Below, piece after piece: positions 7,597 through 15,422 of a stretch of DNA of 40,384 nt (position 1 is its first letter; the number at the start of each line of letters is the position of its first letter). Origin of the DNA: Sedimenticola sp. (GTDB lineage Bacteria > Pseudomonadota > Gammaproteobacteria > Chromatiales > Chromatiaceae); the NCBI GenBank assembly GCA_011051655.1, contig DRKS01000096.1:1-40384 (forward strand), written 5' to 3'. A program made the translations under genes and the position numbers. The notes under the pieces are model-generated. The model searched no databases and was not told the DNA's origin. It was given only the letters and a program-made list of their open reading frames with translations.

Positions 7597-8496
7597 GTGA
7601 CCAGAAAAAACAGTATTTCCGCCTTGTCGGTATTTTTGATCTTTCTCATCGCCGGGTATCCTGTTCAGGCGTTCAGCACCGAAAAATACAGCGCCAAAGA
7701 ATGGGGCGTCATCATCAATCTGTCGGGCAGGCAGAGAATGTTGACCCAGAAGATGAGCAAGGAATTGCTGTTGATGGCGGCCGGAGAACATATCCGCGCC
7801 ATAGACGTCCAGGATAACTATCGCGAATTATTGAAAAGCTCCGCCCTGTTCGATCACATCCTGGACGGCCTTCTGCAAGGAGATGCGGAACTGGGGCTGC
7901 GCCCGGCAAAGGGCGCGGATGTAAGAGCGAGACTGAAAGCCATCAAGGACATGTGGATACAGTTCAGGCCCAGCATCGATATCGCGCTTACATCCGAAGG
8001 CAACGTGGACTACTTCAAGGTGGCGTCCCAATCCCTGCCGTTGCTGAATGAAGTCAACAAGGCCGTGAAGCTGTTCGAGAAAAAGGCCATGCGGGAGTCC
8101 GGCAAGAAAGTGAGCACGGTAATCAACTATGCCGGCAGGCAGAGGATGTTGATACAGAAAATGGCAAAGGAGATGCTGCTGGTCTATCTGAAACACGAAA
8201 ACCGCGAGAACCTTTTTCGTTCCATGTGGATGTTCGAGGAAACCATGAGGGCGCTGATGGATGGAGACAGCATAACCACCATCGACGGCAAAAAGGTAAG
8301 GCTTCCCCAAACCCGGGACAAGGCCATTCTGGCCCAGTTGGCCAAGGTCAGGGATATGTGGCAATCGTTCAGGTCGCTTCTTAACGATGAAATCAATGAA
8401 GAGAATATCATCAAGATGTCGGCCATGAACATGAAGCTGTTGAGAGAGATGGATATCGTTGTGAAGATGTACGAAGTCAACCAGGATTCGCTCTGA
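7597..8496 (+). CDS. Secreted protein with two PilJ-type sensory domains
   Basis: The 299-residue protein starts at GTG, five bases after a run of purines (GAGGGGGG). A signal peptide covers about residues 1-25 (ending VQA). The rest is two repeats of the type IV pili methyl-accepting chemotaxis transducer N-terminal (PilJ/NarX-like) domain. They are centred on NLSGRQRMLTQKM (41-53) and NYAGRQRMLIQKM (177-189) and span about 38-165 and 174-296. In NarX and PilJ this helical module is the periplasmic ligand-sensing part of a membrane receptor. Here there is no membrane anchor and no signalling domain, so it may be a periplasmic binding or accessory protein. It is divergent from the MacAB-like exporter and overlaps the next gene tail to tail by 20 bases. 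Confidence 0.82.
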   Translation: MTRKNSISALSVFLIFLIAGYPVQAFSTEKYSAKEWGVIINLSGRQRMLTQKMSKELLLMAAGEHIRAIDVQDNYRELLKSSALFDHILDGLLQGDAELGLRPAKGADVRARLKAIKDMWIQFRPSIDIALTSEGNVDYFKVASQSLPLLNEVNKAVKLFEKKAMRESGKKVSTVINYAGRQRMLIQKMAKEMLLVYLKHENRENLFRSMWMFEETMRALMDGDSITTIDGKKVRLPQTRDKAILAQLAKVRDMWQSFRSLLNDEINEENIIKMSAMNMKLLREMDIVVKMYEVNQDSL

Positions 8497-10196: not shown

Positions 10197-10760
10197 GTGA
10201 ACGATTCAACACAGGTAAAGGTTTGGGACCCCCTGGTCCGGATATTCCACTGGAGTCTGGTGACGGCGTTCGCCATCGCCTATGCCACCGAGGACGACCT
10301 GATGACGATCCACGTCTATGCGGGCTATACCGTCATGGGACTGTTGGCGTTCCGGCTGATATGGGGGTTCGTCGGGCCCCGCTACGCCCGGTTCTCGGAT
10401 TTCGTGCGTTCTCCGCGGGAGGCCATCTCCTATCTCAAGGACATGGCCGCACTGCGGCCGAAGCGCTACCTGGGGCACAACCCGGCGGGCGGAGCCATGA
10501 TCGTGGCCCTGCTGGTGAGCCTGCTCCTGACCACCCTCACCGGCCTGGCCGCCTATGGCATCGAAGGCAGCGGGCCCCTGGCCGCCTGGCTGTCCGGCAC
10601 CGGGGAATCCGCCGAGGATCTGCTGGAGGAGGTGCACGAATTCTTCGCCAATTTCACCCTGTTGTTGGTGTTCTTCCACGTGAGCGGCGTCATCCTGGGC
10701 GGAATCATGCATGGTGAAAACCTGGTGCGCGCCATGTTCACCGGCACCAAGCAGGCCTGA
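10197..10760 (+). CDS. Cytochrome b561-like di-haem membrane protein
   Basis: The 187-residue protein belongs to the b-type cytochrome family of Ni/Fe-hydrogenases and b561-like proteins. It has four membrane helices. The candidate haem ligands are H18 (RIFHWS), H39 (MTIHVYAGY), H147 (EEVHEFF) and H161 (FFHVSG). It should carry electrons between the quinone pool and periplasmic cytochromes. I chose the GTG at 10197 because GAGG sits 8 bases upstream and VKVWDPLVRIFHW is the usual N-terminus; an in-frame ATG at 10170 would add nine polar residues. It opens the SHP/DHC-type cytochrome cluster, and the next gene repeats this domain. Confidence 0.88.
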   Translation: MNDSTQVKVWDPLVRIFHWSLVTAFAIAYATEDDLMTIHVYAGYTVMGLLAFRLIWGFVGPRYARFSDFVRSPREAISYLKDMAALRPKRYLGHNPAGGAMIVALLVSLLLTTLTGLAAYGIEGSGPLAAWLSGTGESAEDLLEEVHEFFANFTLLLVFFHVSGVILGGIMHGENLVRAMFTGTKQA

Positions 10761-10774
10761 GGAGGCCGTTGGTC

Positions 10775-12007
10775 ATGCCGATCCGGACGGAAGAAACCGG
10801 CGCACGGGGCGAGGTGCGGCTAAGGGTGTGGAATCTCCCCCTGAGGCTGTTCCACTGGGGCCTTGCCGCCAGCTTCGTCACCGCATGGCTGACCCTCGAC
10901 GACCGCTACAGGGATATCCATGTCTTTGCGGGTTATGTGATGGCCGGGCTGCTGTTGTTCCGTCTGCTGTGGGGTGTCATCGGGGGTCCCTATGCCCGTT
11001 TCCGTGATTTCGCCTTCGGCTGGCGCGAGGCCCGGGATTACCTGAAGCTGGTGCTGCAGCGGTGCCCGCCCCGCTTCCTCGGACACAACCCCGCCGGCAG
11101 TTGGGCCATTTATCTCCTGCTGGGCCTGGGGTTGCTGATAGCAATCACCGGCCTGCTCACCCTGGGCGGCGAGGAGAGGCATGGTCCCCTGGCCGGATGG
11201 CTGAGCTTTGCCCAAGGAGAGATGGCCCACAACCTGCACGAGCTGCTGGCCTGGTCCATGTTGGGGCTGGTGGCCGTTCATATCGCCGGCGTGGTGGTGG
11301 AGAGCCTGCTGCATCGGGAGAACCTGGTCGCCGCCATGCTGACCGGACGCAAGCCATCGAAGCCGGGTATGGTCTCCGCCAGGGCGGGCCGGCCGACCGG
11401 CATCCTCATGTCGGTGGCGATCGCCGCTTTCGGACTCAGTTGGTTCCATGGCTATCTGGTGGAAACGCCGGAGCGGCCCTATCGGCCGTTCAGCGGCATC
11501 GAGCTGCCGGACCAGGCCCTGTGGCGCGAGGAATGCGGGGCCTGCCATCTGGCCTTCCACCCAAGCCTCCTTCCCGCCCGGTCCTGGAGGACCATGATGG
11601 CGGGCCAGTCGTCCCATTTCGGGGAGGATCTTTTCCTGGAGCGCGACAGCGCGGATGAAATCGAAAGGTTCCTTCTGGAGAACGCCGCTGAACAGGCGTT
11701 GACCGAGGCGGCCTGGAAGATAAACCGAAGCATCGCGGCAACGGAGACCCCCCTGCGCATTACCGAAACCCCCTACTGGGTGGACAAGCACAAGGAGATC
11801 CCCGGCCGGGTATGGGAAGACCCGAGAGTCAACGGCAAGGTCAACTGCGCCTCCTGTCACCTGGATGCCGATGCCGGCACCTTCGAGGATGCGGCCATGC
11901 GGATCCCGGTGGACACGGGGGGCGCACTCAAGGGGCTTTGGGAAGCAATGACCTCCCGTTTCAGGCTGGATTCATCTCACGCCGGTATATTTAACCCCAA
12001 GGGCTGA
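10775..12007 (+). CDS. Fusion of cytochrome b561 and diheme cytochrome c
   Basis: The 410-residue protein joins two parts. Residues 1-195 repeat the preceding cytochrome b, with haem ligand candidates H27, H49, H155 and H169. After a further membrane helix (about 209-229) comes a periplasmic DHC-type diheme cytochrome c domain, with c-haem motifs CGACH (254-258) and CASCH (358-362). The C-terminal part aligns with the separate DHC encoded two genes downstream (shared LLPARSW and RIP motifs). A GAGGAGG ribosome site at 10759-10765 fits the ATG at 10775 better than the TTG at 10769. The fusion would pass electrons from membrane b-haems directly to periplasmic c-haems. It needs the Ccm system encoded nearby. 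Confidence 0.88.
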   Translation: MPIRTEETGARGEVRLRVWNLPLRLFHWGLAASFVTAWLTLDDRYRDIHVFAGYVMAGLLLFRLLWGVIGGPYARFRDFAFGWREARDYLKLVLQRCPPRFLGHNPAGSWAIYLLLGLGLLIAITGLLTLGGEERHGPLAGWLSFAQGEMAHNLHELLAWSMLGLVAVHIAGVVVESLLHRENLVAAMLTGRKPSKPGMVSARAGRPTGILMSVAIAAFGLSWFHGYLVETPERPYRPFSGIELPDQALWREECGACHLAFHPSLLPARSWRTMMAGQSSHFGEDLFLERDSADEIERFLLENAAEQALTEAAWKINRSIAATETPLRITETPYWVDKHKEIPGRVWEDPRVNGKVNCASCHLDADAGTFEDAAMRIPVDTGGALKGLWEAMTSRFRLDSSHAGIFNPKG

Positions 12008-12039
12008 GGCCTTCTTTAACGGATAAAAGCGAGGTGAGT

Positions 12040-12441
12040 ATGAATACAAAACCGATTGGCATTGCCGCACTGTTGTTTGCACTACCGTTTTACGCCCAGG
12101 CGGATGCGGTGTCGGAGCTGGAGGCGCAATACCGGGCCAAGGGCGCCGGACCCTTCAGCGCGGCCGCCGGCGAGGCGTTGTGGAACAAGGGCTTTATAGA
12201 CGCCAAGAGCGGCAAAGAGCGCAAGTGCACCCTCTGTCATACCACTGATCTGACCAGGCCCGGCAAGCATGTGCGCACCGGCAAGGTCATCGAGCCCATG
12301 GCGCCGTCGGTGAACCCAAAACGGTTTACCACGGTGAAAAAGATCAAGAAGTGGTTCGTCCGCAATTGCAAGTGGACGCTGGGACGCGAATGCACGGCCC
12401 AGGAAAAAGGTGATGTGCTCGCCTTTCTCAAGAATCTTTAA
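12040..12441 (+). CDS. SHP-like monoheme cytochrome c (DUF1924)
   Basis: The 133-residue protein has a signal peptide (about 1-22, ending AQA) and one c-haem site CTLCH (63-67). Length, position and the C-terminal pattern fit the DUF1924 / sphaeroides haem protein (SHP) group, whose high-spin haem binds oxygen or nitric oxide when reduced. In SHP an asparagine is the sixth ligand; N109, just before C110, and N92 are candidates here. C110 and C118 could form a disulfide. The start is the ATG at 12040, preceded by GAGGTGA; a GTG at 12034 lies within that ribosome site. It sits between the b-DHC fusion and DHC genes, the known SHP neighbourhood. Confidence 0.82.
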   Translation: MNTKPIGIAALLFALPFYAQADAVSELEAQYRAKGAGPFSAAAGEALWNKGFIDAKSGKERKCTLCHTTDLTRPGKHVRTGKVIEPMAPSVNPKRFTTVKKIKKWFVRNCKWTLGRECTAQEKGDVLAFLKNL

Positions 12442-12468
12442 GCGAACGAATCATTAGAGGTGGATATT

Positions 12469-13047
12469 ATGAAACACAAGACATTAGCCGTATCCCTGTT
12501 GTTACCGGCGCTCATGCTGGCCGCAAGCGGTACAGCCTTCAGCGACGACGATGAGGATGAAAAGGGCGGCTTCCCGGGGCGCTGGTCCGGCGGAGGCAAG
12601 CCCGGCGTGGCGCCGGTGGAAAACCCGCAATACCTGGAAGAGTGCGGCGGCTGCCATTTTCCTTATCAACCCGGCCTCCTGCCCGCGCGGTCATGGACGA
12701 AGCTGATGGCCGGGCTTGAGGATCACTTTGGAGAGAATGCGGAGCTGCCTGCTGACGATGCCAAGGCCATCGAGGGCTACCTGGTGAAAAACGCGGCCGA
12801 CCGCTCCACCTACAAGCGTTCGCAAAAAATCATGAAGTACATGCGGCCCGGTGATGTGCCGCTGCGCATCAGTGAAACCGCTTACTTCCTCAAGGAACAT
12901 GATGAATTGTCCCGCCGGATGGTGCAGGATAACCCGGAGGTGGGATCTTTCAGCAAGTGCGGCGCCTGTCATACCCAGGCGGCCAGGGGTTCTTTCGAAG
13001 AGCGCTCGATCCGGATACCGGGCTTCGGCCGCTGGGAAGACGATTGA
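12469..13047 (+). CDS. Diheme cytochrome c (DHC family)
   Basis: The 192-residue periplasmic cytochrome has a signal peptide (about 1-25) followed by an acidic stretch DDDEDE. Two c-haem sites follow: CGGCH (59-63) and CGACH (164-168). It matches the DHC family, whose members occur next to SHP and can reduce it. It is a paralogue of the C-terminal half of the b-DHC fusion two genes upstream, sharing LLPARSW after haem one and SIRIP after haem two. The ATG at 12469 follows AGAGGTGGA, favouring it over an in-frame GTG at 12460. Likely electron path: quinol, b-haems, DHC, SHP. Confidence 0.88.
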   Translation: MKHKTLAVSLLLPALMLAASGTAFSDDDEDEKGGFPGRWSGGGKPGVAPVENPQYLEECGGCHFPYQPGLLPARSWTKLMAGLEDHFGENAELPADDAKAIEGYLVKNAADRSTYKRSQKIMKYMRPGDVPLRISETAYFLKEHDELSRRMVQDNPEVGSFSKCGACHTQAARGSFEERSIRIPGFGRWEDD

Positions 13048-13074: not shown

Positions 13075-13377
13075 ATGCGCAAGACAGCCAAGATCATTAC
13101 GCTTTTTCTAATGCTGTGCGGGGCCGGCCCGGCGCCTGCCGACGAGGACCATCTGCAGGCGCGGGCGCTGGTCGAGGCCGGCGTCATCCTTCCGCTGGAG
13201 CGCATCCTGGATCAGGTGGCGGCGGAGCACCCGGGGCGCGTACTGGAGGTGGAATTCGAACGGGAACAGGGCCGTTATGTCTACGAGATCGAGCTGGTGG
13301 ATGACAGGGGGCGGGTATGGGAGCTGGAGTACGATGCCGAAAATGCTAAGCTCCTGGAAAAAGAAAGGGAGGATTGA
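13075..13377 (+). CDS. Secreted PepSY-domain protein
   Basis: The 100-residue protein has a signal peptide (about 1-22, ending APA). A single PepSY-like domain follows (about 25-95), with the typical ending ...VYEIELVDDRGRVWELEYDA (in part). PepSY proteins are small periplasmic modulators often encoded beside two-component systems and membrane cytochromes. The stop is only three bases before the response regulator start, so the three genes form one transcript. It may act as the periplasmic signal partner of the kinase; that is inference from position. Confidence 0.82.
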   Translation: MRKTAKIITLFLMLCGAGPAPADEDHLQARALVEAGVILPLERILDQVAAEHPGRVLEVEFEREQGRYVYEIELVDDRGRVWELEYDAENAKLLEKERED

Positions 13378-13380
13378 AGC

Positions 13381-14049
13381 ATGCGCCTGCTGTTGGTGGA
13401 GGATGATGCGGCGCTGGCCGGGCACCTGGATGCGGAACTGACCCGCCGGGGCTTCGCCGTGGATCGCGCGGACAATGGCGTCGATGCGGAGTTCATGGGG
13501 GATCTGGAGCCCTATGACGTGGTGATCCTGGATCTGGGCCTGCCCCGGCGGCCGGGGCTGGAGGTGCTGAGAAACTGGCGCCAGAGGGAAAACCGGGTGC
13601 CGGTCATCATTCTGACCGCCCGGGACGCCTGGCACGAGCGGGTGGACGGCTTCAAGGCCGGCGCTGATGACTACCTGGGCAAGCCTTTTCATATTGAGGA
13701 GCTGGTGGTCCGTGTACAGGCCCTTATCCGCCGCAGTCATGACAAGACGGGGCAGGCGTTGCACAGCGCCGGCCTGACCCTGGACGAGGAGCGGCAGCAG
13801 GTGACGCTGCCCGACGGCCGGTCGCTGGATCTGACCGGCACCGAATTCCGGCTGCTGCGCTGCTTCATGCTGCATCCGGGGCGGATTCTCTCCAAGACCC
13901 GGCTCACCGAGCACGTCTACGACCAGGACTTCGACCGGGACAGCAACCTGATCGAGGTCTATGTGCGCCGTCTGCGGGACAAGCTGGGAAGCGGCTACAT
14001 CACCACCAAGCGGGGACAGGGCTACATCTTCGGGGAAGACAAGGCATGA
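13381..14049 (+). CDS. OmpR/PhoB-family response regulator
   Basis: The 222-residue protein has a receiver domain (1-115) and a winged-helix DNA-binding domain (about 125-220). The receiver has the acidic pocket D8/D9, phospho-acceptor D51 (VVILDLGLP), T79 and K101, all intact. The C-terminal domain has the family hallmark [14 protein letters not shown] and ends GQGYIFGE. It should be phosphorylated by the kinase encoded next, whose start codon overlaps its stop (ATGA). The cytochrome genes just upstream are the most likely targets, alone or together with the ccm operon. No direct-repeat binding site was confirmed. Confidence 0.93.
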
Positions 14050-15422
14050 ACTCCCTGCAGCGGAGGCTGCAACTGGGCCTGACCCTCAGCCTGATGCTGC
14101 TCATGGCCCTGCTCTGGTGGGGGGGAAGCCTGGCGGTGCGGAAGCTGGGGGAAGACCTGATCGGCTCCCGCCTGGAGCATGATGCGGAAAGCCTGCTGGC
14201 GGCGCTGGAATTCGGCGGCGCGGCGCCGGCCCGGATCCCCGGCAAGCAGGTCAACCCCATCTACAACCGGCCCTTTTCCGGGCACTATTTCGTCATCCGG
14301 TTCGCGGACGGCTCTGCCGAATACTCGCGCTCGCTGTGGGATCAAACCCTGGATGTCCGGCCCCTGCAGCCGGGCGGCGGCGCCCACTGGTATGCCGCCG
14401 GGCCCTCCGGTCAGAAGCTGCTGGTATGGGCCAGGCATTACCGCAAGCAGGGGCACGCCTTTACCCTGGCGGTGGCGGAGGATCTCACCCCGCTGGAGCG
14501 CCACCTGTCCCTGTTCCAGTGGACCTTCGCCGGCATAGCCCTGGCGGTGCTGTTCGTGCTGCTGCTGGTCCAGCAGCGCGTGATCCACGGCTCCTTCCGG
14601 CGCCTGGAATCCGTGCGCGCCGATATCCGGCGCCTGGAGCGGGGCGAAACCGGGACACTGTCGGAAGACGTCCCGGACGAGATCCTGCCTTTGGTGCGGG
14701 AGTTGAACCGGCTGCTGGAGCTGCTGGCCCGGCGCCTGGAGCGCTCGCGCAACGCCCTGGGCAACCTGGCCCATGCCCTCAAGGGCCCCCTCAATCTCCT
14801 GGTGCAATACCTGGACGGCGAGGAGCTGGAGAGCCACCCGGAATTACGCGCCCGGACCCGGACCCAGACGGAGCGCATCCGCCAACTGGTGGAGCGGGAG
14901 CTGAAGCGCGCCCGCCTGGCGGGGGGCGGCAGCCCCGGTCGGCGCTTCGATGCGAGACAGGAGCTGCCCGACCTGGTGGAGGTGCTCAGGCAGGTCCACC
15001 GCAGGGACCGGCTGGACATCCGTTGGGACGTGGCCGACGAGACCCCGGCCTTCGGCGACCGGGAAGATATGCTGGAACTGCTGGGGAATCTGCTGGACAA
15101 CGCCTGCAAGTGGGCGGACGCCAGGGTGCGATGCCGCATCTCCGGCGCCGATACCATCAGGATCACGGTGGAAGACGACGGCCCGGGCCGAACCGAGCAA
15201 GAAATGAACCAGCTTGCCCGGCGCGGCGTCCGCCTGGACGAGACGGTGGAGGGGCACGGGCTTGGCCTGGCCATCGCCAAGGACATCGTGAAACTCTACA
15301 ACGGCGGGATACGCTTCGACCGGTCCGGAGATCTGGGCGGATTGCGGGTCAGCGTGGAGCTGCGCCAAACCTTAGAGCATGGTGCTCTTCTCTTCGCGCC
15401 TGAAGCCGGTCCTGCAAAATAA
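14046..15422 (+). CDS. Sensor histidine kinase of the adjacent two-component system
   Basis: The 458-residue inner-membrane kinase has two membrane helices (about 9-30 and 158-178) flanking a 125-residue periplasmic sensor region. A HAMP-like segment follows. The dimerisation box [10 protein letters not shown] has the phospho-accepting H243. The ATPase domain has N-box [10 protein letters not shown] (348-357), G1 EDDGPG (376-381) and G2 GHGLGLAI (403-410). The arrangement resembles PhoQ-like kinases, where the H-box reads HALKTPL. The ATG overlaps the response regulator stop by ATGA. The stimulus is unknown; redox, nitric oxide or haem status would suit the cytochrome context but cannot be read from sequence. 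Confidence 0.92.

Follow-up and report, generated by a model that had tools for sequence, protein, structure and literature searches.

The 40,384-nucleotide stretch of Sedimenticola sp. DNA analysed here (contig DRKS01000096.1, assembly GCA_011051655.1), which we call the window, contains an operon built around SHP, a periplasmic monohaem cytochrome (Table 1). Two adjacent genes for b-type cytochromes open the operon. The first, b1, is free-standing, and the second, b2, continues in the same open frame through an extra membrane helix into a diheme cytochrome c (DHC) domain, here called mDHC. The genes for SHP and for a free DHC, sDHC, follow on the same strand. The original prediction had seen in these four genes a known association of SHP, DHC and cytochrome b, here with two cytochromes b, one of them joined to a DHC domain via a membrane helix. 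The Pfam matches and the gene coordinates bear this out, and the association and the fusion are described in the survey of Meyer, Kyndt and Cusanovich (2010, PMC2909971). The extent it gave, 10197-13047, covers the four cytochrome genes correctly and stops short of the rest: co-directional genes continue to 15422 and encode a PepSY-domain protein (Orf1), a response regulator (RR) and an SK1-like sensor kinase (SK).

Table 1. Genes of the SHP operon in the window.
Feature	Position	Strand	Evidence
b1, free-standing four-helix dihaem cytochrome b	10197..10760	+	PF01292 E 3.5e-27; GTG start
b2/mDHC, cytochrome b - extra helix - diheme cytochrome c fusion (CytB/mDHC chimera)	10775..12007	+	PF01292 and PF09626 in one open frame
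SHP (DUF1924), periplasmic monohaem cytochrome	12034..12441	+	PF09086 E 1.4e-38
sDHC, free periplasmic diheme cytochrome c	12460..13047	+	PF09626 E 3.1e-36
Orf1, small PepSY-domain protein (SK1 accessory)	13075..13377	+	PF03413 E 5.9e-13; gene order matches Meyer 2010
OmpR-type response regulator	13381..14049	+	Pfam match
SK1-like sensor histidine kinase	14046..15422	+	Family matches and motifs

SHP is identified by its DUF1924 domain and a single CXXCH motif (CTLCH, residues 65-69), and its Trp107, Asn111 and Cys112/Cys120 reproduce the pattern W84, N88 and C89-C97 of the Rb. sphaeroides protein. The Asn sixth ligand is found in 39 of the 40 SHPs at fusion loci, the remaining one having a gap, and in 32 of 40 at other loci. 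sDHC matches the solved structures 3u99 (E 1.1e-41) and 2fw5 (E 9.6e-29). With Orf1, RR and SK all present, this is an SK1-type SHP operon. The kinase motif YSRSLWD agrees with the published RSRSLWD at six of seven positions, and SGHYFV is a poor match to SGVYWQ (three of six); variations in the SK1 motifs are allowed by Meyer 2010 (PMC2909971). In b1, His18, His39, His147 and His161 are invariant in all 15 aligned sequences. The solved folds closest to its AF2 model (pLDDT 91.6) are the gamma subunit of E. coli formate dehydrogenase-N, FdnI (1kqf_C; Z 14.1, 2.8 Å, 166 aligned), and superoxide oxidase (5oc0; Z 13.8, 3.0 Å, 152 aligned). Neither b1 (43.2 bits) nor the fusion (52.3 bits) reaches the cut-off of 121.5 bits for the Ni/Fe-hydrogenase cytochrome b (TIGR02125).

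Both halves of the fusion are clearly recognized, PF01292 at residues 18-191 (E 4.1e-27) and PF09626 at residues 250-370 (E 2.7e-37). We judge ATG 10775 a likelier start than TTG 10769. The 52 residues between the two matches include a hydrophobic stretch, and across 47 distinct fused open reading frames (ORFs), of which L056 is cut at its start, the interdomain region spans 41-62 residues and includes a hydrophobic segment. The b-haem histidines H27 and H49 are kept in 46 of these ORFs and H155 and H169 in all 47, as are both CXXCH motifs and the putative distal ligands H281 and H339; this conservation of predicted ligands is far beyond chance. In an AF2 model built from 22 of the fused sequences (pLDDT 83, pTM 0.79), four long helices are succeeded by another at 206-223, a short one reaching 228 and then a DHC fold. 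The b part resembles FdnI (Z 13.5, 2.8 Å, 172 residues) and superoxide oxidase (Z 13.4, 2.7 Å, 150 residues), and the C-terminal part resembles the Rb. sphaeroides DHC 2fw5 (Z 14.8, 2.4 Å, 124 residues); middling Z scores are readily reached by helical folds, and here the sequence families concur. None of the solved chains listed by Foldseek covers both halves. With PF01292 and PF09626 in one frame, a membrane helix between them and genes for SHP and a separate sDHC adjoining, the protein is a CytB/mDHC chimera.

Such chimeras have been described for Rb. sphaeroides and its relatives and for five further species, and a chain quinol–CytB–DHCs–SHP was proposed at the same time (Meyer 2010, PMC2909971). 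The fusion itself and the chain have thus been known since 2010, and the core of the operon is ordinary. The original prediction had allowed for an assembly error joining two genes, to be recognized by unfused genes in close relatives, and had suggested a search for the same fusion elsewhere. An assembly or frame artefact gains some colour from genomes G004 and G027, where a cytochrome b gene is followed in frame by a DHC gene with one stop between them, but these unfused cytochromes b are of the b1 type and not of the fused type. Both domains lie in one frame in 24 of the 80 loci kept, of 112 confirmed, in a contig scan for relatives (two of these contigs also appear as L033 and L034). In a sample of 398 Pseudomonadota genomes, at least 118 with a DHC match, the fusion is present in 18 of the 20 fetched candidates with listed frames of at least 350 amino acids, from 17 genomes. 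Seven of 149 Rhodobacteraceae genomes, the family of the Gemmobacter caeruleus genome, bear DHC, and all five loci fetched from this set have the fusion. On Ruegeria plasmids it is annotated as one coding sequence. No fusion relative was confirmed in viral contigs. Since the same fusion recurs in dozens of other genomes, close relatives included, the artefact is refuted and keeps practically no probability.

The six fusions L139-L144 (six genomes, family code f66) sit on a long branch of their own. The 6.5-11 kb fetched around each of them gave no SHP match, so this fusion may serve an acceptor other than SHP; one of these genomes, G232, has an SHP elsewhere (L146). In Sedimenticola selenatireducens, a second cytochrome b/DHC locus (L153, same contig as L081) has a weak, short SHP match at L153:8295-8468 (22 bits), possibly a degenerate SHP.

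What is new is the composite operon with two cytochromes b, together with a signal for a single origin of the fusion. Immediately before the fusion, b1 is present in the window and in L048, L049, L050, L053 and L034 (same contig as L057); L068 also has b1 before b2, its contig ending inside b2. Fusion operons without b1 include L033 (same as L054), L047, L051, L055 and L058. The first 450 bases of L052 contain no credible trace of b1 (best match E 1.1, 10 residues), and L056 begins inside the fusion. The alphaproteobacterial L069 has a second, unfused cytochrome b of the fused-clade type downstream of the fusion. The two-b operon is a recurrent variant and not a one-off. A search of Meyer 2010 (PMC2909971) and the open-licence literature found no SHP operon with two cytochromes b, which is a weak negative.

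A cytochrome b tree (116 rows, 181 columns) places all 46 fused cytochromes b within one 49-row clade (support 94/93). The other three rows are L068, with its cut contig, L072, with a fused-type linker and its DHC half in another frame, and the second cytochrome b of L069, which is truly unfused yet lies inside the fused clade in the best tree. b1 belongs to a 7-row clade (100/98) within a set of 33 unfused cytochromes b (99/91). The adjacency of b1 and b2 and their 47% identity over 187 positions might suggest tandem duplicates, one copy of which was then fused. A tree constrained to keep b1 rows with b2 rows has a log-likelihood 231 lower and is rejected under the model used (p-AU 2.6e-43), however, and we regard such a duplication as very improbable. 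In the DHC tree (123 rows and 137 columns, few for this number of rows), the 47 fused mDHCs and the L072 mDHC form one group, with a weak uniting branch (84/15). The original prediction had called the fused DHC paralogous to the free one, which holds in a deep sense; a local duplication, with the window-type mDHC and sDHC rows held together, is rejected (p-AU 4e-7). The published view of a local duplication from sDHC to mDHC within Rhodobacteraceae is likewise rejected (p-AU 0.0013, 5+5 rows).

Repeated origin of the fusion is also the published view (Meyer 2010, PMC2909971). Because the one 49-row clade takes in every one of the 46 fused cytochromes b sampled, the tree favours one old fusion over repeated fusions, for a sample that has Campylobacterota and Rhodoferax outside it, whose fused loci were chosen partly by long frames and whose rows were found with a fused query. 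A strict fused clade that excludes the unfused L069 row, with no later loss, is borderline (p-AU 0.052).

In the window operon, SHP groups with the SHPs of fusion operons (14 rows, 98/83) and sDHC with their sDHCs (12 rows, 100/95). b1 has its place among the cytochromes b found in ordinary SHP operons, and the 16-row clade of the kinase (95/94) also contains kinases from b1-only SK1 operons. Both arrangements exist in G010, a genome of the same family that matches Sedimenticola sp. BM503 in contig and sequence, with a b1-SHP-sDHC-Orf1-RR-SK operon (L042) and a fusion-SHP-sDHC operon (L033) on different contigs. The simplest reading is that the window operon arose by merger of an ordinary b1/SK1 operon with a fusion-SHP-sDHC operon, one SHP and one sDHC being kept.

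The operon is most likely a dual-entry quinol:SHP reductase. Quinol would be oxidized at the four-helix, two-b-haem domain of the fusion, and electrons would traverse the membrane via these two haems. The extra helix would return the chain to the periplasm, where the attached mDHC would accept the electrons and hand them to SHP, directly or through the free sDHC as a mobile partner. On reduction the Asn ligand of SHP would depart, leaving the iron free to bind a small ligand such as O2 or NO. b1 would provide an accessory second quinol entry, of a different lineage, that arrived with the Orf1-RR-SK1 regulators. The order quinol, b haems, mDHC, SHP is suggested by the protein families together with the published reduction of SHP by DHC, for which Meyer 2010 (PMC2909971) cites experiments in Rb. 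sphaeroides. The original prediction had proposed this same chain, which stands as a proposal. A conserved GHNPAG loop, together with the b-haem histidines, is at most suggestive of quinol oxidation. The fused domain and SHP carry opposite charges: in the window the net charges are +12 for SHP, -11 for mDHC (residues 229-385) and -6 for mature sDHC, and among 13 chosen loci the SHP domain is positive in 13 of 13 (+3 to +13) and the fused mDHC negative in 10 of 10 (-5 to -15). The fusion alone can apparently serve SHP, because the fusion-SHP-sDHC operons L033, L051 and L055 lack b1.

Several observations weigh against this reading. The sDHC domains of the 13 loci have mixed charges (-10 to +3). 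Likeness of a predicted fold to FdnI is no demonstration of quinol oxidation. For 9 of the 46 distinct fused cytochromes b there is no SHP match within 5 kb in the fetched stretch, and some fusions may serve other acceptors. The sDHC of the two-b operon L034 falls outside the 12-row clade of the window sDHC. L047 has the regulators and no b1, which would be a loss or an exception under the merger, L053 has b1 on a contig that ends before any regulator, and L058 combines the fusion and regulators (divergent, with a second sDHC) with no b1. Because of these three arrangements, b1 and the regulators are not strictly linked, and the kinase tree is compatible with their joint arrival without proving it. 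On balance, an SK1-type SHP operon in which the fusion is a quinol:DHC reductase and b1 a second quinol entry gained by operon merger is probably the best explanation.

An alternative role for b1 would be that of a superoxide oxidase-like enzyme recovering superoxide leaked by SHP-O2, with the fusion alone feeding SHP. The b1 model matches superoxide oxidase practically as well as FdnI. Superoxide oxidase gathers superoxide with a cationic periplasmic cluster that includes R30, R35, R38 and R108, according to PMC11869295. No such cluster by the outer haem is apparent in b1, judged from a weak alignment and from loop charges: most of the loop with R30-R38 has no counterpart in the aligned b1 family, and the net charges of the loops on that side are -3 and -6 in b1 (0 and -3 in the fusion). 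Moreover, the sole cytochrome b of many ordinary SHP operons is of the b1 type (L076, L078-L080, L083, L088, L089). Because these operons have no other cytochrome b, b1-type cytochromes most likely feed SHP there, and the superoxide oxidase role appears highly unlikely for b1.

The output of the chain could also lie elsewhere than in O2 or NO, in a metal- or copper-stress electron pathway. SHP operons lie near a copper oxidase, CopC, CopD and a P-type ATPase on a Caballeronia zhejiangensis plasmid, near a copper ATPase and a heavy-metal regulator on two near-identical Ruegeria plasmids, and near CDF and P-type ATPase genes on a C. grimmiae plasmid (plasmid loci L158, L154, L159 and L161). A Pseudomonas plasmid with SHP lists no metal genes. 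In Allochromatium vinosum, a cluster including czcA and fieF is up on pyrite versus sulfide (DUF1924 log2FC 7.10), as described in PMC11267869; Alvin_0020, 0022 and 0023 are down on elemental sulfur versus sulfide in work cited there. In G010, 30 bases separate the end of a CDF gene (L042:5103-6272) from the ORF of the ordinary b1 that comes after it. With RND pumps excluded, a P-type ATPase, CDF or copper gene is present at 10 of 42 unfused SHP loci versus 2 of 32 control loci (Fisher p 0.057), but at 7 of 34 (p 0.15) once eight plasmid loci, some added after the metal genes were seen, are removed. Fusion-bearing loci have no such excess (4 of 53 versus 2 of 32, p 1.0; 3 of 48 minus near-duplicates), and a metal link for the fusion lineage is therefore unsupported. 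RND pumps themselves occur at 4/42 unfused, 0/53 fused, 1/5 DHC-only and 1/32 control loci. In the window, no gene of the counted kinds was found within positions up to 20 kb (L046). A metal-stress pathway is thus an unlikely, weaker rival, and we favour O2/NO chemistry at SHP. The Rb. sphaeroides protein, also Asn-ligated, binds O2, and NO dioxygenase activity has been reported for it, as cited in Meyer 2010 (PMC2909971).

The source genome (3.1 Mb, 103 contigs, 95.8% complete) has a single SHP match and two for DHC, every one of them inside the window operon. It carries the cbb3 oxidase subunit CcoN, above the NCBIfam cut-off, and of its five matches to the cytochrome d1 domain three lie in long ORFs. 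Denitrification is only hinted at, because neither of the two cytochrome d1-domain ORFs scanned received an NCBIfam name (E 1e-30).

Among the closest known systems is the Rb. sphaeroides CytB/mDHC chimera (PMC2909971), which agrees with the window in the fusion, in the order of SHP and sDHC after it and in the proposed chain. Its operon has neither a second cytochrome b nor regulators, whereas the window has b1 before the fusion and Orf1-RR-SK1 after it. The six-gene operons typified by Shewanella oneidensis (Meyer 2010) share cytochrome b, SHP, sDHC, Orf1, RR and SK1 with the window, but the examples compared have no fusion and only one cytochrome b. FdnI shares the four-helix, two-haem-b fold of the fusion's b part; it has no DHC domain, and its electrons run toward quinone. 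In the A. vinosum cluster Alvin_0013-0026, a cytochrome b561, two DHCs, DUF1924 and RR/SK are induced together, according to PMC11267869; its cytochrome b and DHC genes are separate and metal-efflux genes are included, unlike in the window.

No neighbouring gene that would point to a substrate is widely common among the 13 compared loci. Downstream genes are shared by L047-L049, two upstream genes by L033 and L051, and an ABC ATPase by the window and L051. Related genes lie upstream of the fusion on the same strand at L051:6046-7521 and L033:6075-7529; the former is ferric-reductase-like (PF01794 with FAD and NAD domains). L050 has three extra genes between the fusion and SHP (L050:9778-12457), two with PKD-like matches, one of which is below the Pfam cut-off, and a gene without a Pfam match between sDHC and Orf1 (L050:13699-14418). 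Near the window operon but outside it, positions 7597-8496 encode a stand-alone protein with two PilJ N-terminal-type matches. Positions 1-2774 are of low GC content (39% in 1-2000; most of the window is above 60%), encode a WD40-repeat protein and were perhaps acquired.

We put forward tentatively, as a serious possibility, that the fusion goes back to a single event, after which it reached the sampled Alphaproteobacteria, Magnetococcales and Gammaproteobacteria by inheritance or transfer. In the Sedimenticola-like family it would then have merged with an ordinary SK1-regulated SHP operon. The product would be a dual-entry quinol:SHP reductase whose one SHP receives electrons from two cytochromes b that are only distantly related. 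The phylogeny questions the published statement of more than one fusion origin. The fusion tethers the electron-donor domain to a putatively quinol-reactive cytochrome, and the fusion plus SHP would be a minimal unit for probing the chain from quinol to SHP.

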